A stretch of 64,000 nt of DNA from Georgenia subflava (GTDB lineage: Bacteria > Actinomycetota > Actinomycetes > Actinomycetales > Actinomycetaceae). Positions 1 through 47,404 of the stretch are shown here, one piece after another. The DNA is taken from NCBI RefSeq assembly GCF_009193155.1, contig NZ_VUKD01000005.1:248001-312000 (forward strand), given 5' to 3'. Under the pieces are notes generated by a model. It made no database searches and had not been told where the DNA came from. It saw nothing but the letters and a program-made list of their open reading frames with translations. The position numbers and the translations under genes were made by a program. Positions within the stretch are counted from its first letter, which is position 1, and the number at the start of each line of letters is the position of its first letter.

Positions 1-892
1 ACATCCGTTCCATCCAGTCGGCCGCCTCGGGTGTGGCCCACCGGCGCAGCCCGATGCCGTCACCCGCGGCCACCGCCGCCACCGCCCGCTCGGCGACCGG
101 CCGCGCCACCTCGCTGCGTCGCACGCCGATCGTGGTGACTCCTCCGCCGTCCCAGTCCCCCGCCATCGCGCCGTCGGTGGGCCGTCCGTAGATCAGGCGA
201 ACGTCGGCGTCCCCCGAGCCCAGCTCGTGCTTGAGGAAGTACTCGCGTCCTCGACGCACGGCGAGGGAGTCGTCCCCGTCACCGTCCCAGTCGCCCACCA
301 GCACCTCGTCCAGCTCGCGACCGTAACCGAGCGAGAACTCGGCAGCACCGGGGGTGAGCGAGTTCCGGAAGTAGTAGAGAGCGCCGCGGCGCACGGCGAG
401 GGAGTCGGCGCCGTCACCGTCCCAGTCGCCGACCAGCACGTCGTCCGAGTCGTTGCCGTACGCGAACACCGTCTGCGCCGGCCCCGACGTCAGGGAGTTG
501 CTGATGTGGTAGACGGCGCCCCGGCGCACGGCCAGGGTGTCGACGCCGTCGCCGTCCCAGTCCCCCACCAGCACCTCGTCCCCGGCACGCCCGTAGGTGA
601 GTGTCACGTGGGCCGGCCCGTCGGTCGCGGCGTTCCTGAGATGGAAGGTGGCGCCACGGCGCACCCCGACGGTGTCCGTGCCGTCGCCGTCCCAGTCACC
701 GACGAAGGCCTCGTCCGCGTCCCGGCCGTAGGCGAAGGCGATGCCCGACGTCGCGTCCAGGGAGAGGTGGTAGCGCGCACCGATCCCGTCGACCTCGCTG
801 CCCTTCGCCGACGCGGCGGGGGCCAGCAGCACGGTGGCGGCCAAGAGGGTGGTGGCCAGCACGGAGGCATCGACCGCGCGGATCTTCTTCAT
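1..892 (-). CDS. Secreted protein with five GDWDGDG repeats (C-terminus cut by window edge)
   Basis: The reading frame stays open to base 1, so the C-terminal part is missing (297 codons visible). The ATG (890-892) follows GGGGAGG with 5 bases between. The N-terminus is a signal peptide (MKKIRAVDAS, a hydrophobic stretch, cleavage probably after APAASA). Five units of about 45 residues follow, each with a YGR..D...VGDWDGDG...VRRG pattern; the fifth is degenerate (GDWDGGG, VRRS). D-x-D-x-D-G resembles the Ca loop of FG-GAP/VCBS blades (family knowledge). After the fifth unit comes an Ala-rich stretch, about residues 248-297, which I cannot assign; the homologues in this window carry an enzyme-like partner there or at the N-terminus. 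Predicted extracellular; function unknown. Confidence 0.85.
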   Translation of the reverse strand, partial: MKKIRAVDASVLATTLLAATVLLAPAASAKGSEVDGIGARYHLSLDATSGIAFAYGRDADEAFVGDWDGDGTDTVGVRRGATFHLRNAATDGPAHVTLTYGRAGDEVLVGDWDGDGVDTLAVRRGAVYHISNSLTSGPAQTVFAYGNDSDDVLVGDWDGDGADSLAVRRGALYYFRNSLTPGAAEFSLGYGRELDEVLVGDWDGDGDDSLAVRRGREYFLKHELGSGDADVRLIYGRPTDGAMAGDWDGGGVTTIGVRRSEVARPVAERAVAAVAAGDGIGLRRWATPEAADWMERM

Positions 893-927
893 GGCGACCT
901 CCCCGTCGAGGTGCTGTGCCTGGCGCA

Positions 928-956: not shown

Positions 957-1049
957 CGGAATGGCGACGCTTCCGAGGGCGCTTCCAAGGGCGGCGTCCA
1001 AGGGCCGCTTTCAAGGGGCAGCGCCGCGTGGGTCGGTCGGCCCGCTCGG

Positions 1050-4120: not shown

Positions 4121-5100
4121 GGTTCCACCACCGTAGCCGCGCCGCTCCGCCCGCCGACGGCGGAGGGCAGGAACGGGACGAGCGCCAGGAGCCCGACCTC
4201 CGCGGCGATGATGAGGAAGCGGGAGAGGACGGCGACCGCGAGCGCCGGCCCGCTCCCGATGCTGCCCGCGAGCAGCCCGACGAGCACCGCCTCGCGCACC
4301 CCCACGCCCGCCGGGACGAGGACGGCGAGGAACCCGCAGACCCAGGCGATGGCGAACCCGCCGACGGCGAGCCGCAGGCCGTCCGCCCCGGTCAGCCCGG
4401 TCGGCGCCGCCAGCAGCCACAGGTGCACGCCGTACGCGCCCCAGGCGGCGGCGGACCAGCCGATCGCCGGCCGCAGCGACCCGGCGGCCGGGAACACCTC
4501 CCCGAGCCGGGACGCCAGGGCGGGTACCCGCCGCGTCACGGCGCCGACGACGCCGGGCCGCACCGCGAGCACCAGCACGGCCGCCGCGGCCAGGACCACG
4601 ACGGCGACCTGGGCTGCCACCGGCAGCCACGAGAGCGACGGCGCACCGAGGACGAGGAGACCCGCCACGAGCGCGAGGAGCACCGTCAGCCCGGCGCCGA
4701 GCAGGATGGCCAGGACCGACGACGCCCGGTCGATGCCCTTCTTCCGGCCGAGCTCCATCTGCGCGACGTAGGCCCACGCGGTCCCCGGGACGTACTTGCC
4801 GAGCTGCGCGAGGTAGAACACCCGCATCCACGGCCGCAGCGGCAGCCGGTGCCCCAGCGCGGCCAGGATGCTGCGCTGCTGCTGGCCGGAGATCGACACC
4901 GCCAGGGCCGCGGCCACCACCGAGGCGACCGCCGCGCCGAGCGGGATCTCGGCGAGCGCGTCCGAGACAGCCGGCCACTGGAGGTACAGCGCCCGGCCGA
5001 GGAAGAAGACGGCGACGGCGATCAACAGCCACCGCACGGCGACCTTGACCGCGGCGCCGCGGGTGCGCACGGCCCCCTGCTCGCCCGTGTCCGCGCTCAT
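4117..5100 (-). CDS. LPG-synthase-TM (UPF0104) family membrane protein, second copy
   Basis: 327 residues, a paralogue-like partner of the protein at 1989-2951. It shows the same landmarks: LGKYVPGTAWAYVAQ near residues 105-120 and VLVPAGVGVREAVLVGLLAG near the C-terminus, in about eight membrane helices. Start ATG 5100-5098 overlaps the upstream TGA (ATGA), and its own stop overlaps the next ATG, so it is embedded in a run of 4-base overlaps between two glycosyltransferases. Probably translocates or handles a lipid-linked sugar (family knowledge plus context); no soluble catalytic domain is present. Confidence 0.85.
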   Translation of the reverse strand: MSADTGEQGAVRTRGAAVKVAVRWLLIAVAVFFLGRALYLQWPAVSDALAEIPLGAAVASVVAAALAVSISGQQQRSILAALGHRLPLRPWMRVFYLAQLGKYVPGTAWAYVAQMELGRKKGIDRASSVLAILLGAGLTVLLALVAGLLVLGAPSLSWLPVAAQVAVVVLAAAAVLVLAVRPGVVGAVTRRVPALASRLGEVFPAAGSLRPAIGWSAAAWGAYGVHLWLLAAPTGLTGADGLRLAVGGFAIAWVCGFLAVLVPAGVGVREAVLVGLLAGSIGSGPALAVAVLSRFLIIAAEVGLLALVPFLPSAVGGRSGAATVVEP

Positions 5101-6212
5101 CGCGCCCGGTCCCCGTCCAGCATCGAGCCGATGACCCGGACGTACTCGGACCACTCCCGCAGGTAGTCCCCGCGCGGGTAGCTCCCGATCGCCTCGGCCA
5201 TCGAGTTGTACACGTCCGGCTCGCACGCCTGCCGCAGCGCCGCCACGATCTCGGGGACGGCGGGGCGCTCGGCCACCACGCCGTAGCGGCCGCGGATCTC
5301 CTCCGCCAGCGCGCCGACCTGGGTGGCGATCACGGGCCGGCCCAGCTCGAACGCGAGCTTGATGTTGCCCGAGCCGGTCACCGAGCGGTAGGTCAGGGCC
5401 ACGATGTCCGACTCCGCGAACAGCTCGTGCAGCTCGCCCGTCGGCACGTAGCCGTTCCGGACGGTCAGGCGGTCCGCGGCGCCGGCGCGCCGGGCGACGT
5501 CCCAGAGATCGGCCTCCGGCGACCAGAACTCGCCGGCGACGGTGAGGTGGACCTGGGGGACCTGGCCCGCGGCCTCCACCAGCAGGTCGACGCCCTTGTA
5601 CGGGCGGACCAGCCCGAAGGACAGCACCCGCAGCGGCTCGTCGAGCGACCGCCGTGGCCGCGGTGCCGCCGCCTCCAGGTCCCCCAGGTTCGAGGGCAGG
5701 ACGGCGGTGGTCAGCGGTGTGTCGGTGAGCCGGCGGGCGAGGTCGTGCTGCTCGGGCGAGTGCACCAGGACGTCGTCGACCGCGCCGAGCAACGCCGAGA
5801 CGAGCGTGCGGTCGCCCAGCCGGCCCTCGTGGGGCAGCACGTTGTGCATGAGCGCGACGGTGCGGACCCGGCCGCGCAGCATCCCCACGACGGGCAGGTA
5901 CGGCAGGATCTGCACGGTGCTCGCGACCACGAGGATGACGACGTCGGCGCGGCGCAGGCGGCGCCCGGCCTCCCACCAGGTCCACGGCCGGTTCCACGAG
6001 AGGCGCCGCAGCACCCGGGGGAAGACGGGGATCTCCGGCTCGTCGTCGGGCACCGTGAGCTCGCCGGGGTACAGCAGCGCGGGGTACTGGCGCCGCCAGG
6101 ACTCGACGTAGACGTCGTGGCCCTCCCGGCTGAGCTCGTGCGCCAACCGGGTGGTGTGCTGAGCGATGCCGCCCTTGTACGGGTGGGTGGGGCCGACGAC
6201 GGCGATCCTCAC
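5097..6212 (-). CDS. Glycosyltransferase family 4
   Basis: 371 residues with a complete GT-B fold. The N-terminus, MRIAVVGPTHPYKGGIAQHT, has the Gly-rich acceptor-side loop of GT4 enzymes. In the C-terminal half LSFGLVRPYKGVDLLVEA and GSGNIKLAFELGRPVIATQVG mark the donor-binding region with the E-x7-E-type helix. The start is GTG (6212-6210), which overlaps the upstream TGA by GTGA. Cytoplasmic, membrane-associated sugar transfer in the operon at 1989-7396; acceptor and sugar unknown. Confidence 0.9.
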   Translation of the reverse strand: MRIAVVGPTHPYKGGIAQHTTRLAHELSREGHDVYVESWRRQYPALLYPGELTVPDDEPEIPVFPRVLRRLSWNRPWTWWEAGRRLRRADVVILVVASTVQILPYLPVVGMLRGRVRTVALMHNVLPHEGRLGDRTLVSALLGAVDDVLVHSPEQHDLARRLTDTPLTTAVLPSNLGDLEAAAPRPRRSLDEPLRVLSFGLVRPYKGVDLLVEAAGQVPQVHLTVAGEFWSPEADLWDVARRAGAADRLTVRNGYVPTGELHELFAESDIVALTYRSVTGSGNIKLAFELGRPVIATQVGALAEEIRGRYGVVAERPAVPEIVAALRQACEPDVYNSMAEAIGSYPRGDYLREWSEYVRVIGSMLDGDRAR

Positions 6213-7396
6213 GACTTGCTGAGTCTCACGTCATCGACGGGCTCGGGCTCGACCGAGCCGACCCACTCCACCTCGTCCGGGTCGTCGGTGCGAAGTCCGT
6301 CCCCCACCGGGTCGTCGGTGCGCCGGTTCGCCCGCACCGCGTCCTCGGTGCGCAGGCTCGCCCGCAGCGGGTCAGCCCCGGACGCGAACGCGCCGTCGCC
6401 GTCGTGCTCGAGCAGCTCGGGCAGGGCGGGGCGGTCGATCGAGGCCGCCGGCCCCGCCGGGTCGTACTGGAGCGTCTTCATCCGCTCCAGCGTCTCCTCG
6501 AGCAGGACGCGGTTGGTGCGCTGAAGATCGGCGATGATGAGCAGCGCGAAGCACACGAGCGCACCGACGAGCATCGCGGTGCCGAAGATCAGCGACTGGA
6601 CGTGACCGGCGGAGTCGCCCATCAGCCAGAACACGAGGAACCGCACGAACGGGATCAGCGCGGCCACGAGCATGACGCCGCCGATGGCGCCGAGCAGCAC
6701 GTGCGGCTTGAACATCAGGTACGAGCGGGTGATCGCGCTGCCCGACTTGAACATGTGGTGCCAGATGTTCTTGAAGAGCCGCGACTCGCGCGTCTTGGGG
6801 TTGGTCGTGATCGGCAGGGACGCGATCCTCAGCCGCTTGTTGCCGGCCTGGATGATCGTCTCCATGCAGTAGGAGAACTGCGTGACGACGTTGAGGCGGA
6901 TGAGCGCGGCCTTGGAGTAGGCGCGGAAGCCGCTGGCCGCGTCGGGCAGGTCCGTGCCGGCAGCCCTGTTGACGACCTCCGAGCCGACCTTCTGCATCGC
7001 CTTCTTGAACGGGGAGAAGTGCTCGATCGTCGCGGTCTGGCGGTCGGCGATCACGACGTCGGCCTCGCCGCGGACCAGCGGCTGGACGAGGTCGCCGATG
7101 CGGTCCTGCGGGTACTGGTTGTCGCCGTCGGTGTTGACGACGATGTCTGCCCCGTGCGCGAGGGCGTAGTCGACGCCGTCCCGGAAGGACCTGGCCAGCC
7201 CCATGTTGCGGGCGTGCCGCACGAAGTGGCGCACGCCGTGCTCGCGGGCGACCTCGACCGTCCGGTCGGTGGAGCCGTCGTCGACGACGAGGATGGTGAT
7301 CTCGTCGATGCCCGGGATCTCCCGCGGGATGCTCGCCAGCACGAGCGGGAGCGTCTCCTCCTCGTTGAGGCAGGGAACCTGGACGAACAACTTCAT
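6209..7396 (-). CDS. DPM1-like GT2 glycosyltransferase with two C-terminal membrane helices
   Basis: 395 residues. The GT2 domain (1-230) has FVQVPCLNEEETL at the start, the VVDDGSTDRT strand, an N-T-D-G-D metal site (VVNTDGDNQYP) and a QxxRW-like C-terminal region. This is the pattern of polyprenyl-phosphate mannose/glucose synthases. Two hydrophobic segments follow (VLLGAIGGVMLVAALIPFV and LIFGTAMLVGALVCFALLI). The tail, about residues 320-395, is acidic and repetitive, with RTDDP-type decads. Start ATG 7396-7394 has GAGGAAA six bases upstream. First gene of the operon; it may make a polyprenyl-P-sugar for the GT-C-like enzymes nearby (inference). Confidence 0.88.
   Translation of the reverse strand: MKLFVQVPCLNEEETLPLVLASIPREIPGIDEITILVVDDGSTDRTVEVAREHGVRHFVRHARNMGLARSFRDGVDYALAHGADIVVNTDGDNQYPQDRIGDLVQPLVRGEADVVIADRQTATIEHFSPFKKAMQKVGSEVVNRAAGTDLPDAASGFRAYSKAALIRLNVVTQFSYCMETIIQAGNKRLRIASLPITTNPKTRESRLFKNIWHHMFKSGSAITRSYLMFKPHVLLGAIGGVMLVAALIPFVRFLVFWLMGDSAGHVQSLIFGTAMLVGALVCFALLIIADLQRTNRVLLEETLERMKTLQYDPAGPAASIDRPALPELLEHDGDGAFASGADPLRASLRTEDAVRANRRTDDPVGDGLRTDDPDEVEWVGSVEPEPVDDVRLSKS
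6281..6352. repeat. Three 30-bp-spaced repeats in the tail of the DPM1-like gene
   Basis: GTCGTCGGTGCG occurs at 6281-6292 and 6311-6322, and GTCCTCGGTGCG at 6341-6352. Together they encode a 10-residue period with R-T-D/E-D-P/A in the C-terminal tail. Confidence 0.65.
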
Positions 7397-7639
7397 GATT
7401 TCCTCGGTCGGCGTGAGGGCGGGCGTGTCGCTGCGACCGTCGGCATGGCCCGCAGCACTCAGCGCAATGGACGCACGCGCTGACAATGTAGCGTAGCCGA
7501 GTGCCCCGTCCGGGGCTGGTGGCATCACTCACACCCGCACGGTGCCGCGGCTGCCGCACCTCGCCGGCTCGGCCTCGGCACCGGCGTGCGCGTCGGCCTC
7601 GCAGCGGCGTGCGCGCCCGCGTCGCACACGAGGAGAGAC

Positions 7640-14353: not shown

Positions 14354-14359
14354 CCCAGC

Positions 14360-14365
14360 ATGCTA
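14360..14365 (-). promoter_or_regulatory. -10 box for a leaderless start at 14353
   Basis: TAGCAT followed by six bases and then ATG on the minus strand; there is no ribosome site. It faces away from the box at 14401-14406. Confidence 0.55.
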
Positions 14366-14400
14366 GTTGGCCGCCGAGGACCGCCGCGTCCGGTGTCCCC

Positions 14401-14406
14401 TACGGT
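14401..14406 (+). promoter_or_regulatory. -10 box for a leaderless start at 14413
   Basis: TACGGT, six bases (ATGGCC), then ATG. The spacing favours the second ATG (14413) over the first (14407), which would directly abut the box. Confidence 0.55.
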
Positions 14407-14412
14407 ATGGCC

Positions 14413-21175: not shown

Positions 21176-21319
21176 CGCTCGGGACAGGTTACGGCACCCT
21201 GGTGCGGGTCTCCCTGCCGCGAGAGCGCCCACGCCTGTGGAACGGCGCACACGGCCGGGGCCGTGGCGCACCGCGAGCCGCGCGGCACCGGCGGACCGGA
21301 CCGCGCCGCCGGCGGTGGC

Positions 21320-25991: not shown

Positions 25992-26110
25992 GCTTCTCCG
26001 TGCACCCACCGCCTGAACGCCCGACGCGATGCTCCTCACAAACCATGGACGCGTGGCGTCCCGAATCACTATGGTCACTTCAGCCCCACCACCCTGAAGG
26101 AGACCCGGCC

Positions 26111-32594: not shown

Positions 32595-32782
32595 GCGGCT
32601 GTCCTCCACATGGGGTCGGATGAGGGAATGCGATCGATACCGGAACACCGTGCAGGGTATCGGAGCATCCGTGGTCATTGGACAAGCCGTGCCTAGGATC
32701 ACGCTGGCCTAAGACCTCACCACGGTACCGAGGCTTCCGAGCAGGCACACCGCACGACGCACGCCACGTAGGATCAGACATC

Positions 32783-34081: not shown

Positions 34082-34178
34082 GGCGCGCCCTTCTCCGTGG
34101 CTCCGCCCCGTGGCCTACGCTGGCCAGCGCGTCGACCGTCGTAAGGTCAGTCGGGACCGCAGAGGAAAGGTGCGAGGG

Positions 34179-35483: not shown

Positions 35484-35484
35484 A

Positions 35485-36918: not shown

Positions 36919-37234
36919 TATAAGGGACAGAGAATCTCTCTGGGCCACTGAGCTGCTCGGATTCAACTCTCGTTCGAAACTGAGCTTATGGAAACTGTAG
37001 CGGATGGCTCGTCGGGACGGAAGAGCCTTCTGGAACCGGCTGCAATGGGATCCGCTGGCCCCGGGGCTGGGCACGCCCGCGCCATGCCGGCGTCGGCACC
37101 GAGCAGTGCGCTGCGGCGCATAAGGAGAAGCGCCATCCCGGCAAGTCTGGACGGCCATATACGACTGCGATGCGGTGTACGCCGTCTATGCCCGGCTGCG
37201 GACTATCACGCGCCTGGCCTCGACGCACGAGGCC
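36919..37234. other. Intergenic stretch, 316 bases, between two convergent polymerase genes
   Basis: No gene is recognised. On the plus strand one frame from ATG 37004 is open apart from a single stop at 37121-37123 and resembles nothing I know, so it could be a gene remnant. GC is higher than in the Wzy-like gene to its right. No clear hairpin was found. Confidence 0.4.
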
Positions 37235-38590
37235 TTAAGCGACCGGAATCTTCTGCTCGCGTCTGCGCGCGGGCCGACCCGCGGTAACTGCCATGAACCA
37301 TTTAGACGAGGTCCAATTCCGATCTGTTACCTCCTGAAACTCACTGTCTGAGTGCGCTCGACTTCCGCCCACCCCCTGGTCTTGGCGATGTACGAGAGCC
37401 GCGCCAGTAAGTACCATCAACAGGATAGGAAAGTTCCAACCGTTAAGAGTCTCAAACAGCAGGCCTAGACCGGCGGACATGACAACATACTGAACTCCTA
37501 CAGCCCGGAGACTCGCAATTGGGGAACGAAACAAGACAACAAGTATGGCACTGAATAGAACCAGGCTCGCAACTGCACCGAGCAGTCCAAAATTCGAAAT
37601 GGCATAAAGTAGATCGTTGTCTAAGACATCGGCCGAACCTGGACCGAACCCGAAGTACCAATGGAGGGGCCGCGCGTTCAGCCGCTCAATAGCACCACCC
37701 CAGTTCGCCACGCGGGCCGCGAACGAATTTACGCTCGTAAGGTCTCCGGTTTCAATAATGGTTAAGAGTTGATTCAAATACGGAAGCCGATGGCCGAAGA
37801 GCTTGATAATGGCCAGGAAGAAGAGTCCAGAACTCCCGATCAAGACTACAGATTTCCATAGCCGCCGGGATGTGACGGAACGACCAATTCTCACATCGAG
37901 CAGGAGTGTCGTCAAGGCCAGAGCAAAAGGAAAGGCGACCAGTACCGTCCTCGACCCGGCAAGAACGACGAGTACAACGCCTATCGCCAGCGCTGCAAAC
38001 TTAACAACTCTACGACGCTCAAACGCGAGTACAATCATTGAAACCTGCAAGACGACCCAGGCAAATAAGTTAGGATTGTACAGAGTGCCAGTAATCCGGA
38101 CCAGTTCTCCGAGCCCGCGAGTCTTCTCACCGGAATATACGGGCTCCAGTGAACCACCGAAGAGCTGCACCATCCCGTTAATTGCACTAACTGCTAGCGC
38201 GACATAAGCGAACAAGAGGAAAGCGCGATGAACTTCCTCAACTCGCAATCGCCTGGCCTCCAGATAGGCGGCACACAACACGAGCGCAAGCAGCACCGGC
38301 CTAAGGGCATGTAAAAGCGATGCGAATTCGATTCGCTCATAGTTAACCACGGCGGAAATCGCAATGGCGACCATGTACACAAATAGCAGCGCTACCACTT
38401 TCCACACTCCTCGACCAATCGGCTGACGAATGCGCATAGCGATAAGCAACGCACTAATTGCGCCGAGAGCGCCGTAGGTGAAGTAGTGTGCGCCTCCCAG
38501 ATCAGGCCGAGGCATGATAACGAAGAAGATCGGCAACACCGCCAACGTAATCCCGTTGCCGCGACTAAAGGTCTGGAGGGTCAAGGGCAT
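37235..38590 (-). CDS. Wzy-like O-antigen polymerase
   Basis: 451 residues from ATG 38590, with about eleven membrane helices and a long outer loop holding the GHRLPYLNQ and WYFGFGPGSADVLDNDLLY regions, typical of Wzy/O-antigen ligase folds. The C-terminal 50 residues are hydrophilic (RPARRREQKIPVA at the end). TACGGT at 38633-38638 may be the -10 box. Codon use is AT-richer than in flanking genes, pointing to acquisition. It would polymerise the repeat units flipped by the Wzx-like protein at 41164 (inference). Confidence 0.8.
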   Translation of the reverse strand: MPLTLQTFSRGNGITLAVLPIFFVIMPRPDLGGAHYFTYGALGAISALLIAMRIRQPIGRGVWKVVALLFVYMVAIAISAVVNYERIEFASLLHALRPVLLALVLCAAYLEARRLRVEEVHRAFLLFAYVALAVSAINGMVQLFGGSLEPVYSGEKTRGLGELVRITGTLYNPNLFAWVVLQVSMIVLAFERRRVVKFAALAIGVVLVVLAGSRTVLVAFPFALALTTLLLDVRIGRSVTSRRLWKSVVLIGSSGLFFLAIIKLFGHRLPYLNQLLTIIETGDLTSVNSFAARVANWGGAIERLNARPLHWYFGFGPGSADVLDNDLLYAISNFGLLGAVASLVLFSAILVVLFRSPIASLRAVGVQYVVMSAGLGLLFETLNGWNFPILLMVLTGAALVHRQDQGVGGSRAHSDSEFQEVTDRNWTSSKWFMAVTAGRPARRREQKIPVA

Positions 38591-38976
38591 CAAAAGTCCA
38601 TCCCAACTTTTGCCTTCCACTCTAGTGCGGTGACCGTAGTGGCCGTTGCACAGATTACATGGGGCGCAACACGCGCGAGGCGTGGCATCCGTCACTCACC
38701 TAGTTGCCGTCGTGACATGCATCACTCGAGAGGTGTGGGAACCGCGCCAGCAGTCCCGTAGCCTTGAAGCCTGCCGGTCTCATGCTCTCCACACTTCTCT
38801 AGACAACACAGCGCATCGTTTGAGCGGTAGACAGGTACCACGGCTGAGCGGCGGGCACGCACCCACATAGAACTAGACTCGCTGCGACATCAGGAACACA
38901 GCGTGGTGCGACCGCATTACTATCTGCACCAGAACGTCCGCAAACAATTCGCCGCTCCGAACCGTTACGGATTGAT
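38591..38976. other. Divergent intergenic region, 386 bases
   Basis: Lower-GC spacer holding the putative Wzy promoter (minus, TACGGT 38633-38638) and a possible -10-like TACGGA (38966-38971) five bases before the GT4 start at 38977. No coding or RNA feature was seen. Confidence 0.45.
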
Positions 38977-40149
38977 ATGAGAATTACCTACATTCACCAG
39001 CATTTCAAGAGCCCTACTGAAGCTGGTGGCACACGGTCATGGGAGTTCGCGCGGCGACTCGCCGACGACGGTCACGATGTCACAATGATCTGCGGCGGCC
39101 GAGGCAAAGCCAAATACACCGAAGCGGGCTTCACTGTCGTACAGGTGGCTTCCGAGTACAACAATGCGATGTCGGTCAGTGCACGCGTGCGGTCGTTCCT
39201 TTCGTTCGGCGCTAGGGCTACAGCACGGGCAGTAGCCACCCCGGCGGATCTCGTCCTGGCGACTAGCACGCCCCTAACTGTGGCTATCCCTGGCATCATT
39301 GCTTCGACGGTACGCCGAAAAGCGTTCGTGTTCGAGGTGCGAGACCTTTGGCCAGACGTACCGGTAGAGTTGGGTGTCCTACGTTCCGGCACAGTTATTC
39401 GCCTCGCGCGTGCTCTCGAAAAGGTTGCGTATACTCGAGCGAGTCGCATTATCGCACTCTCACCCAGTATGGCCGACGGTGTTCGCGCTCGGGCCCCCCA
39501 CAGTTGCGTAGTTACGATCCCCAATGGAAGCGACTTTGCGCTATTCGACAAGGCCAGCGAGGACAGAGACGAATTCCGGAAGAGCACAGCCACGTCGGAA
39601 CAGCGTATGCTCGTCTACGCTGGCTCCCTCGGAGCGACATATGACGTCGGTTGGCTCGTGGATCTTGCCGCTGAACTTCAGGCTAGTGACACAATCATAG
39701 TCATTATTGGAGAAGGCGCGATGAGCCCTAGGCTCAGGCAACGAATCGATGAACTTCGGCTGGACAATATCGTGCTTACCGGAGCGATCCCTAAGTCCGA
39801 CGTTGCAGACTACGTCGCGTCGGCGGACGCAGTCTTCTCCACATTGCAGGACCATCCCGCGTTGCTTGGCAATTCGCTGAACAAAGTCTTCGATGCGATG
39901 GCTGCGCGCCGCCCAATACTCTTCAACCATGAGGGCTGGCTCGCGGAACTCGCAAGCGAGCGGGGCGCCGGATGGATCTTGAATCGCGACGTTCGGGTTG
40001 CTGGACGACAGATCGTCGATATCCTAAACGACGGCGAGGCATTGGCGAGGGCTGGTGACGCATCCGGGACCACCGGCCAGGAGTTTTTCGATCGCGATAC
40101 GTTGTATGAGCACTTTCATGCAACACTGACCGCGGCCGTTGGAGGTTGA
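38977..40149 (+). CDS. GT4 glycosyltransferase (WcaI/WbuB-like)
   Basis: 390 residues. MRITYIHQHFKSPTEAGGTR is a near-signature start of WcaI-type GT4 enzymes. FEVRDLWPDVPVELG, LSPSMADGVRARAP and the donor site LVYAGSLGATYDVGWL follow, with NKVFDAMAARRPILFNHEGW carrying the C-terminal helix. Lower GC than its neighbours outside the island. It is probably leaderless or nearly so, since TACGGA lies five bases before the ATG. Adds one sugar to the lipid-linked unit; identity unknown. Confidence 0.88.
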   Translation: MRITYIHQHFKSPTEAGGTRSWEFARRLADDGHDVTMICGGRGKAKYTEAGFTVVQVASEYNNAMSVSARVRSFLSFGARATARAVATPADLVLATSTPLTVAIPGIIASTVRRKAFVFEVRDLWPDVPVELGVLRSGTVIRLARALEKVAYTRASRIIALSPSMADGVRARAPHSCVVTIPNGSDFALFDKASEDRDEFRKSTATSEQRMLVYAGSLGATYDVGWLVDLAAELQASDTIIVIIGEGAMSPRLRQRIDELRLDNIVLTGAIPKSDVADYVASADAVFSTLQDHPALLGNSLNKVFDAMAARRPILFNHEGWLAELASERGAGWILNRDVRVAGRQIVDILNDGEALARAGDASGTTGQEFFDRDTLYEHFHATLTAAVGG

Positions 40150-41096
40150 GGCATGAGCTCTCGCGTCACGCACGATCACAAAGCGCACATCAGTTGAGCT
40201 CAGATATTCGGTCAGTCATCGTTGCCGTCATCACCTACAGACGTCCGGAGAGCTTAGCGCGTCTTCTCGACTCCTTGCTCCGGCTAGAAACGCAACTTGT
40301 CGTCGAAGTGGTAGTTATCGATAACGATCCGTCCCGGAGCGCGAGGACGGTAGCGACGACACACGCCATCCAACCCGTCTATCACGTCGAGCCGAAGCCG
40401 GGCATCGCGGCGGCGAGAAACGCGTCAATCGAGGCAGCCGTCGGACGAGGCGACGCGATCATATTTGTGGACGACGACGAGGAAGTCCCCCCTGGTTGGG
40501 TCGACAAGTTGGTTGAAGCGGCGCTCAAGTACGATGCCGCAATGGTTGCCGGGCCGGTTATCTCGAGATTCCCGGAAGCGACGCCTAAGTGGGTTACGCG
40601 CGGCGGGTTCTTCCAGCGTCGGGTGCGGTCAACTGGAAGCAGTGACGGGTTGCCCGCAACGAATAATACGCTCGTGAGAACAGATCTGCTCCTTCGCCAC
40701 GCTCATATCCGTTTTAACGAGAGCTACTCGTTCACGGGCGGCAGTGACTCAGACTTTTTCTCCAGGCTCATTGCGACTTCTCAATGCCGCTGGATCTGGT
40801 GCTCTGACGCAGAAGTTTTCGAGCATGTGCAGGTCGATCGAGTGTCGGCGCGCTGGCTCGTACGCCGTGGGATACGGTCAGGCAACGTTCTCGGTCGCCT
40901 TGCGCTGCGGTCAACTCCCAAGACCATTGTAGTGATCAAGAGTCTTGGTTATCTTCTAGCCGGTCTACTCTCGTTGCCGATCTCTTTGACCATCGCACCA
41001 GGTTGGCGGGCCCGAACACTTATTGCATTTACCCGAGGAATCGGCATGTTGGGTGCTTGCCGAGGGAAGTTCGTAAATGAGTATGCACGCGATTAG
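40146..41096 (+). CDS. Glycosyltransferase family 2 (start uncertain)
   Basis: About 300-316 residues. The GT2 core has VIVAVITYRRPESLARLLDSL, VVVIDNDPS, GIAAARNASIEA and the D-D-D metal site (IIFVDDDEEVPPGW), then FTGGSDSDFFSRL and two weak C-terminal helices. Start choice is hard. TTG 40146 overlaps the previous stop but sits right on GGAGG. ATG 40153 is ideally placed after GGAGG, but its frame ends at 40195-40197. TTG 40194 overlaps that stop. A short coupling peptide or an indel is possible. Confidence 0.82.
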   Translation: MRHELSRHARSQSAHQLSSDIRSVIVAVITYRRPESLARLLDSLLRLETQLVVEVVVIDNDPSRSARTVATTHAIQPVYHVEPKPGIAAARNASIEAAVGRGDAIIFVDDDEEVPPGWVDKLVEAALKYDAAMVAGPVISRFPEATPKWVTRGGFFQRRVRSTGSSDGLPATNNTLVRTDLLLRHAHIRFNESYSFTGGSDSDFFSRLIATSQCRWIWCSDAEVFEHVQVDRVSARWLVRRGIRSGNVLGRLALRSTPKTIVVIKSLGYLLAGLLSLPISLTIAPGWRARTLIAFTRGIGMLGACRGKFVNEYARD

Positions 41097-41163
41097 GCAG
41101 CGGAGCACGCTTTGATGTCGTGCGAAGCCCAGATTGTGAACGCGCTCGCTTCGAGGACCCTCA

Positions 41164-42360
41164 ATGGCGAATAGACGGTATCTGATCGTCCTAGCGTCAC
41201 GAGTGGTTGCCGCCGTTCTTAGCGCGATAGGCTTTCTATTGGTGGCTAGGGAGACCTCACCCGCCGATTTCGGGTACTTCTCAGCATGGCTTGCCGGCGT
41301 CACGGTGGTTATAGCCCTGTCTGACGGAGGGCTTCAGACATACTCGCTACGCCGATACGCAAGTCGAGACCCTGACCGAACGCAAGGGCTGGTTGCAATG
41401 TCGCTGCAGAGACGCGCGACAGTGGCAGTTTCGGCGACGGTCGCGCTCGCAGCTTCTGCGGTGATCCTATGGGCCGACGGCCCTGGGTGGCTTCTGCTAA
41501 TGCCCGCTTGGCAATGGGCACAAAAAGAGACGACGGGCGTCCTCGGCATTGCACTCGCCGAAGACCGCAGTTTGGTGCAGCTTGTGGCCCTCACTGCCAC
41601 TAGAGCCGGCGCCTTGGGGGCATTTGCCTTCGCTCACTACTACTTCCACATCGAAGCCATCCTCAGTTTCGTTTTGGGCAATCTTATTGCTACCGGTATA
41701 GGACTGCTGGCGCTGTATGCGGTCAACCCCCGTTATCGTCGCGTACCCGAAAGGAGTTCTCTGCAATTCTGGAGGGCGGCGCGTCCTTACTGGGTCGCCT
41801 CGATTTCCGCCCAGGTGCGTTCGCTAGATACGGCATTGATTGCACTCGCTGCCTCGCCGTTCCAAGCCGGCCTGTTCAGTCTCCCGTCCCGTTTGACAGG
41901 ACCGATGCGTCTGGCTGCTACGACGCTATCCACAGTGGCGCTCCCTGTTGCGAGCCGGGGCGATAAGGATGAACTACGTCGACTTACTCAAACGCTGCGA
42001 TTGGTCACCATCATCGCAGCCGGCGGCCTCGGGACTCTAGCCCTTTTCGCTGAGCCTATAATCCGTTTGGTTGTAGGTGATGGCTACGTAGGTTCAGTGA
42101 CCCCTCTCCGCATCCTTATCATCGGTCTGTTCCTGAACATTCCCGGTAGCTTCATCAGCGGTGTTCTGCAAGGGACGGGAGCCGAGCGCAGCATCGCGCG
42201 ACTGGGTGTTATACTCGCACTCTGCACTATTATTGGCGTACCTTTGGCAGCCAGTATAGGCGGTGCGAATGGTGCAGCCTTATGCCTTTCCTTAATTTAC
42301 GTAATGCAGCTTGCAGCGGTGACGTACTTGGATCGAAAGCGACGGCAAGACAATGCATGA
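41164..42360 (+). CDS. Wzx-like polysaccharide flippase (MATE/MOP superfamily)
   Basis: 398 residues with about 12 membrane helices. The N-terminus (LIVLASRVVAAVLSAIGFLL) and RETSPADFGYFSAW match polysaccharide flippase proteins; GLFSLPSRLTGPMRLAATTL lies in the second half. ATG 41164 has GAGG about nine bases upstream. It would flip the undecaprenyl-linked repeat unit to the outer face for the Wzy-like polymerase (family knowledge plus context). It lies inside the lower-GC island. Confidence 0.85.
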   Translation: MANRRYLIVLASRVVAAVLSAIGFLLVARETSPADFGYFSAWLAGVTVVIALSDGGLQTYSLRRYASRDPDRTQGLVAMSLQRRATVAVSATVALAASAVILWADGPGWLLLMPAWQWAQKETTGVLGIALAEDRSLVQLVALTATRAGALGAFAFAHYYFHIEAILSFVLGNLIATGIGLLALYAVNPRYRRVPERSSLQFWRAARPYWVASISAQVRSLDTALIALAASPFQAGLFSLPSRLTGPMRLAATTLSTVALPVASRGDKDELRRLTQTLRLVTIIAAGGLGTLALFAEPIIRLVVGDGYVGSVTPLRILIIGLFLNIPGSFISGVLQGTGAERSIARLGVILALCTIIGVPLAASIGGANGAALCLSLIYVMQLAAVTYLDRKRRQDNA

Positions 42361-43255
42361 TACAACGCCGCGGGTACTAATTGGCATCCCGACCTACCGT
42401 CGACCAGCGGAGCTCGAATCGCTTCTTACTGGACTCGTCATCGAAGCTCGCATACACAATGCATCAATCGTGGTCGTTGATAACGATCCCGAGGAAAGTG
42501 CGCGCAAAGTCGTTGAGTCCGCACACCACAGTAACGACATTAGCTACTTGACTGAATCGCGGCCGGGAGTAGTTCACGTGCGCAACGCCATCCTGCGTGC
42601 TGCAAAATTGCACGATGTCTTGATCTTCGTCGACGACGACCAGGTCACCTTTCCGGGCTGGCTGGGAGAGTTCTTGAAGATGCGGGACCGCTACCCTGAG
42701 GCCCTCGTCTCGGGCGAAGTGCGCTATCAATTGCCTATTGGTGCCGATGGGTATGTTCGTGCGTGGTACTTGCGTAAGCTCAGCACTCGGAACGAACAAC
42801 CGCTCAAATCGACGGGTACCGGCAACCTGCTAATTCCTATGAGCGTTCTGGGGAAGCTTGGCAACGCCGAGTTCGACATCCGGTTCGGGACGATGGGCGG
42901 TGAGGACACGGATTTTGTCTATCGTCTGACCATGGCCGGAGTAGAGATCATCTATGCGAAGCATGCATATGTGCATGAAACTGTGCCGGCCACGCGTGCT
43001 ACGAGACGGGCGGTTCGCCAACGAATCATCCGGCAGGGCATGATCCGTGCCCGCTTGGGAATGAAGTTTCACGGGCGCCCAGCGGTCCTCGCTGGAGGTG
43101 TGGCCCGGATCATCGTGGGCGGAGTTGAGTACTTGTGGCACATGCTCCGGACGTTCAACCCATCCCCGTTGGTCGAGGGAAGACTACTCACGGGCGTGGG
43201 GTATGTGGTCGGCGGACTCGGTGTCAGTTCTGACGCATACGGAGGCAAAAGGTGA
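42353..43255 (+). CDS. Glycosyltransferase family 2
   Basis: 300 residues. Motifs: VLIGIPTYRRPAELESLLTG, VVVDNDPEE, SRPGVVHVRNAILRAA and a D-D-D metal site in LIFVDDDQVTFPGW, then GTGNLLIPMSVLG and GGEDTDFVYRL as acceptor-side motifs. It is related to the GT2 at 40146. Its ATG overlaps the flippase stop by 8 bases, and its own stop overlaps the GTG of the pyruvyltransferase. It adds a sugar to the same repeat unit (inference). Confidence 0.87.
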   Translation: MHDTTPRVLIGIPTYRRPAELESLLTGLVIEARIHNASIVVVDNDPEESARKVVESAHHSNDISYLTESRPGVVHVRNAILRAAKLHDVLIFVDDDQVTFPGWLGEFLKMRDRYPEALVSGEVRYQLPIGADGYVRAWYLRKLSTRNEQPLKSTGTGNLLIPMSVLGKLGNAEFDIRFGTMGGEDTDFVYRLTMAGVEIIYAKHAYVHETVPATRATRRAVRQRIIRQGMIRARLGMKFHGRPAVLAGGVARIIVGGVEYLWHMLRTFNPSPLVEGRLLTGVGYVVGGLGVSSDAYGGKR

Positions 43256-44355
43256 TGAGGAATTATCTCGCCGATGTCGGCGGATTGTCTGGTGCGGCGG
43301 GCACACTGTGGCGCGCCAGGGGGCAAGCTAAATGGCTTCTTCGTCCCCACGCGGATGCTGCATACCTTGGCTGGGTGGGACAGGGAAATATCGGCGACGA
43401 ACTGATGTTCAACGCGCACAGTCACGTGTTAGCACCTCGCGAATTACGTCCGGTCGGCCTGGACGGCCCCGGCCGCAGACTGATGAACGGAAGGCGTCCA
43501 AGTGCCGAGGTGCTTCTTCTCGGCGGCGGAACGGTTCTTAACCTAGATTCCTGGGGACGCCGGCTTGATAAAGTCACCCGGATCTTGGACTACGAGCGTC
43601 TGATCGTGTTTGGCCCTGGAGCCGAAGATACTGAATTTGGTATTCGCCGAGGTTTAGTCAGTGAGGAGGGACAGCGTACATGGAGGCGCTTAATGTCTGA
43701 GGCCGCGTTCATAGGTGTCCGTGGACCCAGGTCCCAACATACGCTAAGCAAACTGGGCATCTCAAGTGTTGTCGTAGGCGATCCCGGCCTTTGCGTGCCC
43801 CTCCGACGGATTTCGCCACATACTTCACTAGCAGGGCGACCTCAAATTGCTCTAAACCTTACGGGTGTCAGGAATGCACTGCCGAAGATGTATGAATGGC
43901 GCGCTGAAGTCGCGCGCGCCGCTGCTACATGGAAACGGCGTGGTTGTCTTGTCAACGTATTCGGCATGGATTCCGGCGACGTCATGGCAACGCTCGCTCT
44001 TCTCCAACAGTTCGGTGTACAGGCAGACAAGTGGATTGATCGCCCCTCCGTCTCGTCTCTGACTCAGTTCTTGGCCGGGACGCATCTGGTCGTATCCGAA
44101 CGCCTGCACGGGGCTATCGTTTCAGCGAACCTCGGCGTCCCATTCCTTCATCTGGGATACAAGCCCAAGTCGTTCGACTTTCTCGAGTCAATTGGCGCGA
44201 GCGAGCGAGCAATCGGGATCGGCACGCCAAATTTTGAAAGGGTTATCGAAGCCGGCGATGCAATTATGGGTGATTTCTTGGATGCGCAGATGCGAGAGAA
44301 TATCCTGCGCCTCCAAGAGGAGTTTCGCCGAAATTATGACCTTGCACTTTCATAA
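43252..44355 (+). CDS. Polysaccharide pyruvyl transferase family protein (CsaB-like)
   Basis: 367 residues (GTG 43252, or ATG 43255). The PS_pyruv_trans fold shows YLGWVGQGNIGDELMF, LLLGGGTVLNLD, GVRGPRSQHTLSKLG and the conserved VVSERLHGAIVSANLGVPF with His and Arg. Family members attach ketal-linked pyruvate to glycan sugars using phosphoenolpyruvate, making the polymer acidic; some bind surface-layer domains (family knowledge). Last gene of the plus-strand island. Confidence 0.9.
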   Translation: MMRNYLADVGGLSGAAGTLWRARGQAKWLLRPHADAAYLGWVGQGNIGDELMFNAHSHVLAPRELRPVGLDGPGRRLMNGRRPSAEVLLLGGGTVLNLDSWGRRLDKVTRILDYERLIVFGPGAEDTEFGIRRGLVSEEGQRTWRRLMSEAAFIGVRGPRSQHTLSKLGISSVVVGDPGLCVPLRRISPHTSLAGRPQIALNLTGVRNALPKMYEWRAEVARAAATWKRRGCLVNVFGMDSGDVMATLALLQQFGVQADKWIDRPSVSSLTQFLAGTHLVVSERLHGAIVSANLGVPFLHLGYKPKSFDFLESIGASERAIGIGTPNFERVIEAGDAIMGDFLDAQMRENILRLQEEFRRNYDLALS

Positions 44356-44494
44356 CGAAACCGGGCGGTCGCGGGGCGTTCTCGGTGGCGTCAGATTGAA
44401 ACTGGTTGCATGTTGTGCCGGCAGCGTGTTAGGTGCGCACATGAAATCGGGGTGAGCACATTGGCAACTTTTCTTCGATAGGAACACCATCATC

Positions 44495-47404
44495 ATGCAC
44501 CGCCGATCGCCTGCGTTCTTGCTGCTCGCCGCAGCGGCCTCCCTCGCCACTGTCCTCAGTCTCACCACCCCGGCAACGGCCGCTCCGGAGGATGAGGAGC
44601 CCGTCGGTCCGCTGAACACCTGGATGTTCAACAACGACGGCGAGGACGTCCTCGGCGGCGAGACGTCGGCGCGCTACCAGATCGGCCTCAACGCGTACGC
44701 CCAGGAGCACCAGAAGGGGCGCCTGTACGCGACACCGGTCGGGGTGCACGCCGTTTACGGCAACGTCTACTCTGCGTTCGTCCGGCAGGGCGGGCACGGG
44801 AAGATGGGCTTCCCGACGTCGAGCCAGTCCGTGACCGAGAGCGGGGCGCGGCTCCAGGAGTTCCAGCTCGGGGCGATGTTCGTCTCCCCGCACGGCTCCT
44901 TCCCGGTGCGCTTTCCGGTGTACGGAAGGTACGAGGCTCGCGGCGGCGCCAGGATCCTCGGTGTGCCGACCGGTCCGGAGCGGGTCGTGGGCAACCGGCT
45001 GGTCCAGGACTTCGAGCACACCACGATCTCGGTCCCCCGCGGCGAGGGTGCTGACTCCCTGGGCCTGCGGCGGGGCGCGACGTACTACCTCAAGAACGAG
45101 ATCTCGCCGGGCGAGGCGCACGACACGATCGTCTACGGCCGTTCGGGCGACGTCGTCCTGGTCGGCGACTGGGACGGGACCGGCACCGACACCCTCACGG
45201 TGCGCCGGGGCCGCGAGTACCACGTGAAGAACTCGATCTCCGCCGGCGTCGCCGACAAGGTCATCTACTACGGCCGCCCCGACGACACGGTCCTCGTCGG
45301 CGACTGGGACGGCGACGGCATCGACACCCTCGCCGTACGCCGCGGCCGCGAGTACCACGTCAAGAACTCCATCAGCACCGGCGTCGCCGACAAGGTCATC
45401 TACTACGGCCGCCCCGACGACACCGTCCTCGTCGGCGACTGGGACGGCGACGGCATCGACACCCTCGCCGTACGCCGCGGCCGCGAGTACCACGTCAAGA
45501 ACTCCATCAGCACCGGCATCGCGGACCACGTCGTCGCCTACGGGCGTCCCGACGACGCCGTGCTCGTCGGCGACTGGGACGGCGACGGCATCGACACCTT
45601 CACCGTCCGTCGGGGTAGCACGTACCACGTGAAGAACAGCATCGCCGCCGGCACCGCGGACCAGGTGGCCGTCTACGGCCGCGCGACCGACACGGTGCTC
45701 GTCGGCGACTGGGACGGCCGTCGCCGGAACTACAACCGGGCCGACATCAACCCCCCGGTCGAGGTCACGCCGACCGGCGCCTCCGAGCTCTCCCGCCTCT
45801 CGCCCGGCTGGGCGAACAACTCTGTCAACACCACGGCCTTCCGGAAGAGCTCGATCACGAGCATCGAGGCTCCGGACGGGCGGCTGATGCAGTACACGGC
45901 CTACTACGACCCGATGGGCACCCTCGTCCTCGCCCGCCGTGACCGCGGCGCCGGCGCCTGGGAGTACGAGTGGACCCAGTACACCGGCGACGTGACGGAC
46001 GCCCACAACTCCATCAGCATCGCCGTCGACGGCGCCGGGTACCTGCACGTCGCCTGGGGCCACCACGTCAGCCGGCTGAACTACGCACGCTCCGCCGCCC
46101 CGTGGTCCCTCGAGCTCGGGCGCAAGCAGTCGATGGTCGGCTCGGGCGAGGCCAGCGTGACCTACCCGGAGTTCTTCCGAAAGCCCGACGGCGACCTCTT
46201 CTTCCTCTACCGAGACGGCACCTCTGGGGACGGAAAGGTTGTCCTGAACAACTACGACACCGATCGTCGACGGTGGACCCGAGTGCACGACAATCTGATC
46301 GATGGCCGCGACGGCCGAACGACGCACTCGGCCTACTGGCAGGGCGTGGTCGACTCCTTGGGCAGACTTCACCTGAGCTGGACGTGGCGCGAGACGCCAA
46401 ACGTGGCGACCAACCACGACATCGCCTATGCCCGGTCGACCAGCGCTACTGGCCGCACCTGGGAGAGGTCCACCGGCGTGGACTACAAGAGGCTGCCGAT
46501 CACCAAGGCCACAGACGACGTCGTGGTCGAGGTCCCCAAATACCGCGAGCTGATGAACCAGACGTCGATGGCCGTCGATGACGACAACAACCCGTTCATC
46601 GCCTCGTACTGGACTCCCGACGGGTCGGACGTGCCCCAGTACCACGTCGTTCATCCGACGGTTGAGCCGGAGCCCGAACCAGAACCCACGGAGAAACCGA
46701 CCGAGGAACCTACGGCAGAGCCAACCCAGGAGCCGACGGCCGAGCCAACCGCGGAGCCGACCGAGGAGCCCACGGCCGAACCGACCGAGGAACCCACCGA
46801 CGAGCCCACGGCCGAGCCGACCGCGCAGCCCAGCGTGGATCCCACGGAGAACCTCACCGAGGAACCAGCGGACGAGGAAACAGACGCACCCACGGAGGCA
46901 CCGACGCTCGAAGATCCGACGGTCGATACCGCCGATGCGCCCGTCGTGGAGCGGGCGACCGTCACGACCGCCGCACACAGGGTCGCGACCGTCGCCGAGA
47001 CCGACGAGCCCTGGACGACGATCAATACAGGCATCCGTGAGACGCCGTTCACGCTGAGCGGCGCGGGGACGAAGGCGCTGCCGATCGCCCGTCCGCAGAT
47101 CCTGGTGAGCGGCTCCGGGGCAACCGCCACCGTGCATCTGATCATCCGGGATGTCGACTTTGGCGGAACTGCCGCCCTGGCCTCGTTGCACGGGCTGCAC
47201 TCAGGCGAGTGGGACGTCACGAGCCTCACCGTGGACTCCCTCGGCGAGTGGGAGCCGTCCTACGACCTCGACCTGTGGCGCGAGCACGGCCTTCTCGACG
47301 TCTTCGTCCAGAACGTCAAGCAGATCGACGGCGAGGGCCTGGCCGACTACCCCTCCCAGTTCGTCTACGTCATGCAGGTGGACCGCACCCTCGCCGGCTC
47401 GTGA
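44495..47404 (+). CDS. Secreted LGFP + five-repeat + BNR_4 protein with Pro/Glu/Thr insert
   Basis: 969 residues. Signal peptide at 1-30 (LLLAAAASLATVLSL, cleavage near PATAA). LGFP-type repeats (about 55-185; GKMGFPTSSQSVTESG, ARILGVPTGPERVVGN) are cell-wall modules in corynebacteria. The propeller units follow (about 186-408): an opening half-unit (DSLGLRRG) then five GDWDG motifs. A BNR_4-like domain (about 425-969) has WGHHVSRLNYARS and ends with W-E-P-S-Y-D-L-D-L-W. That domain is split at about residues 721-836 by an EPTEEPT-rich insert. BNR_4 proteins include sialidase- and polysaccharide-lyase-like folds; activity here is unproven. The ribosome site is weak (AGGAA). Confidence 0.87.
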   Translation: MHRRSPAFLLLAAAASLATVLSLTTPATAAPEDEEPVGPLNTWMFNNDGEDVLGGETSARYQIGLNAYAQEHQKGRLYATPVGVHAVYGNVYSAFVRQGGHGKMGFPTSSQSVTESGARLQEFQLGAMFVSPHGSFPVRFPVYGRYEARGGARILGVPTGPERVVGNRLVQDFEHTTISVPRGEGADSLGLRRGATYYLKNEISPGEAHDTIVYGRSGDVVLVGDWDGTGTDTLTVRRGREYHVKNSISAGVADKVIYYGRPDDTVLVGDWDGDGIDTLAVRRGREYHVKNSISTGVADKVIYYGRPDDTVLVGDWDGDGIDTLAVRRGREYHVKNSISTGIADHVVAYGRPDDAVLVGDWDGDGIDTFTVRRGSTYHVKNSIAAGTADQVAVYGRATDTVLVGDWDGRRRNYNRADINPPVEVTPTGASELSRLSPGWANNSVNTTAFRKSSITSIEAPDGRLMQYTAYYDPMGTLVLARRDRGAGAWEYEWTQYTGDVTDAHNSISIAVDGAGYLHVAWGHHVSRLNYARSAAPWSLELGRKQSMVGSGEASVTYPEFFRKPDGDLFFLYRDGTSGDGKVVLNNYDTDRRRWTRVHDNLIDGRDGRTTHSAYWQGVVDSLGRLHLSWTWRETPNVATNHDIAYARSTSATGRTWERSTGVDYKRLPITKATDDVVVEVPKYRELMNQTSMAVDDDNNPFIASYWTPDGSDVPQYHVVHPTVEPEPEPEPTEKPTEEPTAEPTQEPTAEPTAEPTEEPTAEPTEEPTDEPTAEPTAQPSVDPTENLTEEPADEETDAPTEAPTLEDPTVDTADAPVVERATVTTAAHRVATVAETDEPWTTINTGIRETPFTLSGAGTKALPIARPQILVSGSGATATVHLIIRDVDFGGTAALASLHGLHSGEWDVTSLTVDSLGEWEPSYDLDLWREHGLLDVFVQNVKQIDGEGLADYPSQFVYVMQVDRTLAGS
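45245..45514. repeat. Two nearly identical 135-bp tandem units
   Basis: 45245-45379 and 45380-45514 differ by one or two bases. They encode one repeat of the propeller each, a very recent in-frame duplication. Confidence 0.9.
46655..47002 (+). repeat. Pro/Glu/Thr tandem insert inside the BNR_4 domain
   Basis: In-frame low-complexity stretch with many E-P-T-A/E units (for example EEPTAEPTEEP), encoded by repeats of the GAGCCSACSG type, densest at 46665-46880. It lies between PQYHVV and W-x-x-I-N-T-G-I-R-E-T-P-F of the same domain. Confidence 0.8.

Follow-up and report, generated by a model that had tools for sequence, protein, structure and literature searches.

Several families of repeat modules hold proteins on the bacterial surface. 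SLH, CWB2 and choline-binding modules are repeats common to many surface proteins that bind wall polymers, and SLH binding is described as requiring a pyruvylated polymer (PMC5817068); the main text of that review contains none of the words 'propeller', 'VCBS' and 'FG-GAP'. EpaU, a GH25 enzyme of Enterococcus faecalis encoded in the EPA cluster, is reported to bind the strain's own teichoic-acid-like decorations through its C-terminal domain, and an epaR mutant without the decorations resists it (PMC13343894). The propeller of UmbA4, from the umbrella toxins of Streptomyces, is reported to bind teichuronic acid, with a cryo-electron microscopy structure, and 12 families of five-bladed propellers are described among UmbA domains (PMC13274773). 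VCBS-like propellers are described as typically carbohydrate-recognising (PMC9218822); VCBS, integrin and tachylectin propellers share one supercluster, and uncharacterised 'VCBS actinolectins' and bacterial tachylectin-like propellers have been reported (Pereira and Lupas, PMC8023676). Here we examine a stretch of 64,000 nucleotides from Georgenia subflava (assembly GCF_009193155.1, contig NZ_VUKD01000005.1, positions 248,001 to 312,000 of the forward strand), called the window below. Five of its proteins share a module built of GDWDGDG repeats and are encoded within a glycopolymer locus or at its ends. This module, a predicted five-bladed propeller, is probably a non-covalent surface anchor that reads an exported glycopolymer and retains secreted enzymes.

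The degenerate DNA pattern for GDWDGDG occurs 23 times in the window (at most two mismatches), against 0.05 expected in shuffles. All five proteins that an earlier note on this DNA had listed, on the letters and reading frames alone, carry the unit of about 45 residues; each has five units at 45-residue spacing, with a single interval of 46. Pfam also matches the partner domains named there. Protein 2 (16284-17687, minus strand) has a signal-like N-terminus, the propeller at 16869-17546 and a DUF3152 domain (3.5e-36). Protein 3 (21320-23464, minus strand, start at 23464) joins Amidase_2 (1.5e-10) to a C-terminal propeller at 21323-22000. Protein 4 (26045-27502, plus strand) joins CAP (2.1e-12) to a C-terminal propeller at 26819-27496; its start is uncertain, with candidates at 26045, 26111 (the earlier note's choice) and 26171. 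Protein 5 (44495-47404, plus strand) holds LGFP repeats (2.1e-12), a propeller at 45038-45733 whose units are circularly permuted and still number five, BNR_4 (about 45890-46651; 1.1e-81) and a PT-rich stretch. Its score against the NCBIfam model of BT3686 type is 486 bits, under the cut-off of 700. By analogy with the BT3686 enzyme, and as a hint only, a rhamnose-uronate linkage may be the target of the BNR_4 domain. Protein 1 (1-892, minus strand, gene start at 892) is cut by the window start; it shows a signal-like N-terminus, the propeller at about 110-787 and a C-terminal part without known domain. Its whole gene lies in the neighbouring stretch (L029:11819-13063), where about 100 residues stand C-terminal to the module and no Pfam family is matched at E <= 1e-4.

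The unit number is nearly fixed at five, a point absent from the earlier note. The own genome encodes 24 module proteins (25 matches, two in one frame). A position-weight scan counted five units in 21 of the 24 modules and four in three, where the fifth unit lies at the extreme end or in the permuted copy. A spacing scan found five in 23 of 24, the remaining one having scored five by position weights; combined, the scans give five units in all 24. A scan of genome contigs returned at least 365 relatives, from which 76 loci were kept. Among the 106 distinct module open reading frames (ORFs) of these loci, the unit count by script is five for 87, four for 11 and three for 8, with no higher value. 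Read by eye, the 19 exceptions comprise 11 with a degenerate fifth unit, five with truly four units and three cut by a contig end or gap, which brings the five-unit modules to 98 of 106. An open solenoid of variable length is rejected, the 24 own and 106 related arrays counted having nearly always five units and never more.

AlphaFold2 gave 20 strands from 21 aligned modules, with a mean pLDDT of 95.6 and a pTM of 0.90. For the permuted copy it also gave 20 strands (pLDDT 90.7, pTM 0.84), its five models ranging from 90.7 to 58.3. The array is thereby predicted to be a single closed five-bladed beta-propeller of the VCBS/FG-GAP class. The module typically opens on a second half-unit (FFLNDSW...F.YG) and closes on a first half-unit (VGDWNGDG.DTLGVRR); in the predicted fold, this split unit is the usual 'velcro' closure of propellers. 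Residue conservation was read from 411 units of relatives, chosen by a pattern that itself fixes the Gly-Asp-Trp core. The Asp positions of the DxDxDG loop hold Asp or Asn in 98-99%, 99% and 95% of these units, and the ninth loop residue is Thr or Ser. Outside the loop, an Asp seven residues before the Trp is conserved in 97%, two consecutive Arg in 93% and 96%, an Asn in 85% and an Ala in 86%. Our guess is that the Arg-Arg of each blade might read acidic groups.

None of the five window proteins passes the gathering cut-off of Pfam FG-GAP_3 (PF13517, 26.9 bits), the best reaching 21.8. The isolated module of protein 2 scores 26.7 bits, another module of the same genome has a better E-value, and the family matches 12 of 21 isolated modules at E <= 0.1. 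A sequence search of solved structures gave nothing meaningful. Foldseek ranks best the KICSTOR chains (7e-6), which we take to be its FG-GAP subunit. Fungal lectins of PVL type come next (3.5e-4 to 1e-3), and below them chains of the BBSome, of Tc toxin and of integrins. The earlier note's view of a repeat unlike any known is rejected: weak profile matches, the predicted model and Foldseek all place it in the VCBS/FG-GAP class. The propellers of KICSTOR, the BBSome and integrins bind proteins, and their presence among the best structural matches would suit a module that, as in integrins, binds proteins or self-assembles to build up a layer or complex at the surface. We regard this as improbable, as it does not predict the linkage to glycosyltransferase genes found below in ten distant genomes.

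The module shares with other VCBS/FG-GAP propellers, PVL-type lectins and alpha-integrins included, the four-stranded blades, the DxDxDG-type loop and the predicted fold. It differs by its five 45-residue blades instead of seven and by the almost invariant Arg-Arg of each unit. Tachylectin-2, as it is described, has five blades as well. Bacterial tachylectin-like propellers are likewise reported as secreted and often joined to catalytic domains (PMC8023676, PMC9218822); they are described as having no Asp-rich loop (PMC8023676), whereas the present module has one of GDWDGDG type. The actinolectins are described as having signal sequences and no known function, and as confined to actinobacteria, in the form of a lone propeller or a TIM barrel with a propeller (PMC8023676). 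The present module also occurs in Firmicutes and has many partners, which sets it apart by that paper's description, not by its profile. The string 'GDWDGDG' is absent from open-licence PubMed Central papers, a description elsewhere being possible; in the same collection, no paper relevant by title and abstract joins FG-GAP with amidase and cell wall, or tachylectin with actinobacteria and peptidoglycan.

The module is spread over unrelated, secreted-looking enzymes. In the own genome, 23 of the 24 proteins were scanned for partners (all but a second PKD/LamG-like protein of L035). They contain DUF3152, Amidase_2 (twice), CAP (twice), LGFP with BNR_4, SpoIID, GH3 (three times), 5'-nucleotidase (twice), Abhydrolase_10, M23 with SH3, excalibur, GmrSD_C, PKD/LamG, AMIN-like, M15_4, glucose/sorbosone dehydrogenase and beta-helix domains; two module proteins have no family at all. 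A simple hydropathy test finds a hydrophobic N-terminal segment in 22 of the 24, and in the other two, whose ORFs were given too early a start, signal-like stretches lie further inside. Of the module proteins that reach a stop codon, 129 in all, none has an LPxTG-like motif or, by such a hydropathy test, a C-terminal membrane segment. The scan of relatives covered 69 of the 106 ORFs; it passed over the Georgenia loci, seven proteins that are large or nearly duplicated, a short ORF and an ORF with a gap. Among the 25 of 46 families listed, their partners are Amidase_2 (7), subtilase (4), GH25 (4), BNR_4 (3), CAP (3), Amidase_3 (2), NlpC/P60 (2), glucosaminidase (2), 5'-nucleotidase (2), alkaline phosphatase (1) and others. 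The idea of a module shared by secreted-looking proteins is thus supported, wall enzymes being frequent partners. Neither the own-genome scan nor that of the relatives, within the families listed, gave an SLH, CWB2 or choline-binding match. A trypsin-like domain, a feature of UmbA, is found in none of the 23 own-genome proteins scanned, umb genes not having been searched for. In another stretch of the genome (L033:9140-10600), a secreted-looking propeller protein with a nuclease-type GmrSD_C domain adjoins an excalibur-domain propeller protein.

Glycoside hydrolases among the partners (GH3, BNR_4) would also suit a module for foreign or environmental glycans, serving feeding, host attachment or antagonism, and the propeller lectins of Streptomyces umbrella toxins are reported to read the walls of other species (PMC13274773). 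Against such a role, the linkage described below is to biosynthesis genes (GT2, LCP, Wzm/Wzt), and in the relatives scanned, among the families listed, 17 peptidoglycan-hydrolase matches stand against three BNR_4 and one GH3. We consider it very improbable.

Module sequences were compared in a set of 109, namely 22 of the 24 own modules and the 87 relatives with five script-counted units. Mean identity is 64.1% for the same genome and a different partner, 62.4% for another genome and the same partner, and 53.6% for neither. The nearest neighbour shares the genome with another partner in 36 cases, the partner in another genome in 25, both in five and neither in 43. Concerted evolution within genomes is weakly supported by these values, which show no clear genome-wise homogenisation; domain shuffling is likely on the sequences. 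Two groups of adjoining module genes have propellers very similar by eye: at L031:5887-15955 (G000:C4), the enzymes are a 5'-nucleotidase and two GH3, and at L029:1854-10429 (G000:C7), an esterase, a GH3 and a 5'-nucleotidase. With propellers so alike and enzymes that differ, the module has probably been copied recently from one kind of enzyme to another.

Within the own genome, ten of the 24 module genes lie in one 59-kb stretch with glycopolymer genes. The earlier note's placing of the module genes in or at the ends of such a locus stands for the five of the window; confinement of the repeat to that locus is rejected for the genome, 14 copies being located elsewhere. The relatives kept come from Georgenia, Oceanitalea, Occultella, Actinomyces, Actinotignum, Bifidobacterium, Flaviflexus, Geodermatophilaceae, Demequina, Cellulomonas and Acidimicrobiia, from Enterococcus, Faecalicatena, Scatomonas and metagenome-assembled genomes of Clostridiales, and from other groups. 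Among 59 genomes of the genus, family and order, the own one included, 23 have a module match (E <= 0.001): all nine of the genus, and a patchy set in the family. One 3.9-Mb genome of the same family (G016) has 31 matches, some perhaps fragments of one gene, where the own genome has 25.

Searches of 50,697 phage records and of 72,556 plasmid records gave no match to the module of protein 2, and three relatives lie on viral contigs; the use of the module by phage lysins as a wall binder is not supported. On one of these contigs (L119:5464-6735), an M23-like peptidase, as read by eye, is followed by a more distant tachylectin-like propeller repeat. This protein may be a wall enzyme of a phage or prophage, its propeller being related to the module.

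Module genes are linked to polymer genes in two phyla. In the genus (nine genomes), 46 of the 81 module genes have a glycosyltransferase 2 (GT2) or LytR-CpsA-Psr (LCP) gene no more than 10 kb away, against 4.5 expected. With clusters collapsed (modules less than 20 kb apart merged, the first of each taken), the count is 15 of 41 against 2.3 (P 3e-9). All expected counts and P-values assume uniform placement; the GT2 list held 150 of 152 matches. Substrate-binding-protein genes, taken as a control (the best 150 of 209 SBP_bac_1 matches), are near these markers in seven of 150 cases against 8.2 expected, which argues against a generic clustering of secreted genes near glycan genes. Because the nine genus genomes share ancestry, we tested ten distant ones, two of Enterococcus among them, picked from the matches for taxonomic spread before their glycan genes were inspected. 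With GT2 alone as marker, one match under the family cut-off being kept, 19 of 53 module genes are within 10 kb, against 2.6 expected, and each of the ten genomes has at least one such gene, against 1.5 expected. In Actinomyces glycerinitolerans and Enterococcus asini, the single module gene found is itself within 10 kb of GT2 genes. The co-occurrence with glycopolymer genes that the earlier note had proposed to look for exceeds chance in both sets.

The order of genes in the window points the same way. On the minus strand, the amidase-propeller gene (protein 3) is followed after 48 base pairs (bp) by wzm (ABC-2 membrane protein, 20294-21271), wzt (ABC ATPase with a Wzt_C domain, 19092-20297) and a GT4 glycosyltransferase gene (17740-19362 as listed, the start probably near 19092), and after another 52 bp by the DUF3152-propeller gene (protein 2); the exporter group is thus flanked by module genes. 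With 17 polymer proteins of the window as queries, tblastn matched 35 of the 76 loci, several only through the likeness to Wzt that ABC ATPases share in general. In four lineages (the window, L050, L089 and L105), the gene directly upstream of wzm encodes a hydrolase with a propeller. The gaps are about 48, 75, 253 and 82 bp, the distance being taken to a tblastn start in two cases. The hydrolase is Amidase_2 in L050 (Actinomyces), NlpC/P60 in L089 (JB111), where an Amidase_2-propeller gene precedes it, and Amidase_3 in L105 (Scatomonas), a locus that ends inside wzm, short of wzt. At the wzm site, the catalytic part varies and the propeller is retained.

This constancy bears on another explanation, in which the propeller binds peptidoglycan or some other constant wall component and the linkage reflects a tendency of wall hydrolases to sit in wall-polymer loci. 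The 17 peptidoglycan-hydrolase matches in the 69 relatives (Amidase_2, GH25, Amidase_3, NlpC/P60 and glucosaminidase) agree with it, and such hydrolases are most of the module partners in the loci of Enterococcus, Faecalicatena and Scatomonas. Against it, the hydrolase changes at the wzm site while the propeller stays, and partners outside these peptidoglycan-hydrolase families (esterase, GH3, 5'-nucleotidase, BNR_4) also lie within 10 kb of GT2 or LCP genes. We therefore hold it to be unlikely, and prefer an anchor that reads the exported polymer.

A second arrangement recurs in other lineages. Proteins of the LGFP-propeller-BNR_4 type also occur in L085 and L105, where Pfam matches BNR_4 and the N-termini look LGFP-like to the eye, and, by sequence likeness, in L042. 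In L105 and L097, a gene of LGFP-propeller type is followed by a GT2 gene homologous to that at 6209-7528 of the window; the L097 protein ends after the propeller. LGFP-like repeats, a permuted propeller and BNR_4 stand in one protein at L105:9539-12040 and L085:5505-8225, both clostridial, and at 44495-47404 of the window. The likeness of these clostridial and actinobacterial proteins suggests that parts of such loci have been transferred between phyla. UDP-sugar dehydrogenases in L085 and L105, a pyruvyl transferase in L105 and LicD in L085 indicate acidic or decorated polymers. A GH25 enzyme lies among polysaccharide genes in L085 and in two enterococci, Enterococcus asini and Enterococcus HY326 (L106, L114), where it is near GT2 genes and has the propeller as its C-terminus; we presume that these polysaccharides are wall-bound.

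EpaU is alike: the gene of this wall hydrolase lies inside a wall-polysaccharide cluster, and the enzyme binds the polysaccharide concerned through its C-terminal domain (PMC13343894). Its binding domain is described as OB-like repeats, whereas the enterococcal GH25 enzymes here end in a propeller. UmbA4, likened to the module by description and not by sequence, is a secreted actinobacterial propeller that binds a teichuronic-acid-like wall glycopolymer; it differs as a receptor-binding part of a toxin that reads the polymer of other species, and its reported sites, between blades 5 and 6 and on blade 4, imply more than five blades (PMC13274773). By analogy with these two, we infer that the propeller is a carbohydrate-binding domain. 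Its ligand would be the polymer of the linked locus, and this polymer would be wall-bound in each species.

In the mechanism we propose, the half unit at the start of the array would join the half unit at its end to close the five-bladed propeller, and an enzyme carrying it would be secreted and then held at the cell surface. The blades would grip, at several sites at once, a glycopolymer exported and tied to the wall by the Wzm/Wzt and LCP machinery. Hydrolases encoded beside wzm would be placed where new polymer emerges, and enzymes encoded elsewhere would use the same propeller hook. SLH binding is described as needing pyruvylation of the polymer; here, a polysaccharide pyruvyl transferase gene (43252-44355, plus strand) adjoins the gene of protein 5, 139 bp upstream of it.

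Several points weigh against this anchor. The earlier note had set copies far from glycan loci against its tethering idea, and part of the copies do lie there, outside the main glycopolymer stretch in the own genome (14 of 24) and more than 10 kb from the markers in the genus (35 of 81) and the distant set (34 of 53). Nine of 12 copies in Actinotignum are away from GT2, and in Flaviflexus 15 of 16 are away and one is near. Distant copies do not by themselves refute the idea, because an anchor can act in trans. The module is not found in 36 of the 59 genomes, and is therefore not a general need of polymer-bearing cells. The linkage control consists of substrate-binding-protein genes, not of module-free hydrolases, and the shared ancestry of the genus set weakens its counts. 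Some partners have no evident wall role (glucose/sorbosone dehydrogenase and GmrSD_C types). Five relatives have four units, although in some of them near-identical units adjoin the missing one, so that assembly collapse is possible. The Foldseek TM-scores by query length are modest, about 0.4-0.5, and the lectins matched have more than five blades (blade number as given in PMC8023676). Tethering of wall-active proteins to the local polymer, as first suggested, is nevertheless favoured by the linkage, the wall-enzyme partners and the lack of the other anchors looked for in the 129 proteins.

The remaining polymer genes of the window comprise GT2 and GT4-type glycosyltransferases, a bacterial sugar transferase, CapD-type, Wzy_C and flippase-type proteins, two LCP proteins and an acyltransferase. 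GT4-type and GT2 genes lie at 5097-7528 (minus strand; the GT2 at 6209-7528 being that with homologues just downstream of LGFP-propeller-type genes), and a double GT4-type gene (minus) with a GT2 gene (plus) at 11786-16253. The minus-strand group at 27542-32702 encodes GT2, a PglD-type protein, a bacterial sugar transferase and a Polysacc_synt_2 (CapD-type) protein. The two LCP genes follow on the plus strand (32678-34081 and 33972-35483), then a Wzy_C protein, GT4-type and GT2 glycosyltransferases and a Polysacc_synt_3 flippase-type protein at 35320-43255. An acyltransferase 3 family protein and an NAD-dependent epimerase are encoded at 47880-50174 (minus strand). The guanine-cytosine (GC) content falls to 0.58 at 36001-44000 (Wzy, glycosyltransferase, flippase and pyruvyl transferase genes), against 0.70-0.76 over the first 28 kb, so this part looks acquired or exchanged; protein 5, next to it, has a third-position GC of 0.91. 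Beside the epimerase gene, long ORFs without Pfam matches overlap on opposite strands (49089-52637 and 50087-51373); codon GC favours the minus strand.

At about even confidence, we propose that the module represents a general, unnamed class of Gram-positive surface anchors, a five-bladed 'reader' that would travel with polymer loci across Actinomycetota and Bacillota. The exporter group would carry its own polymer-guided hydrolase beside wzm, with a freely exchanged catalytic domain; dozens of unrelated enzymes would be retained in some genomes, and the Arg-Arg pairs would line as many as five like pockets, each taking an acidic group (uronic or pyruvylated). If true, this would explain the surface retention of many secreted enzymes that show no sortase motif. 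It would give a sequence handle for predicting surface proteins and the matching polymer, as well as a ready-made targeting domain. The guidance of hydrolases by exported wall polymers would become directly testable, and ordinary wall biology would gain a propeller family so far met chiefly in lectins, integrins and toxins.

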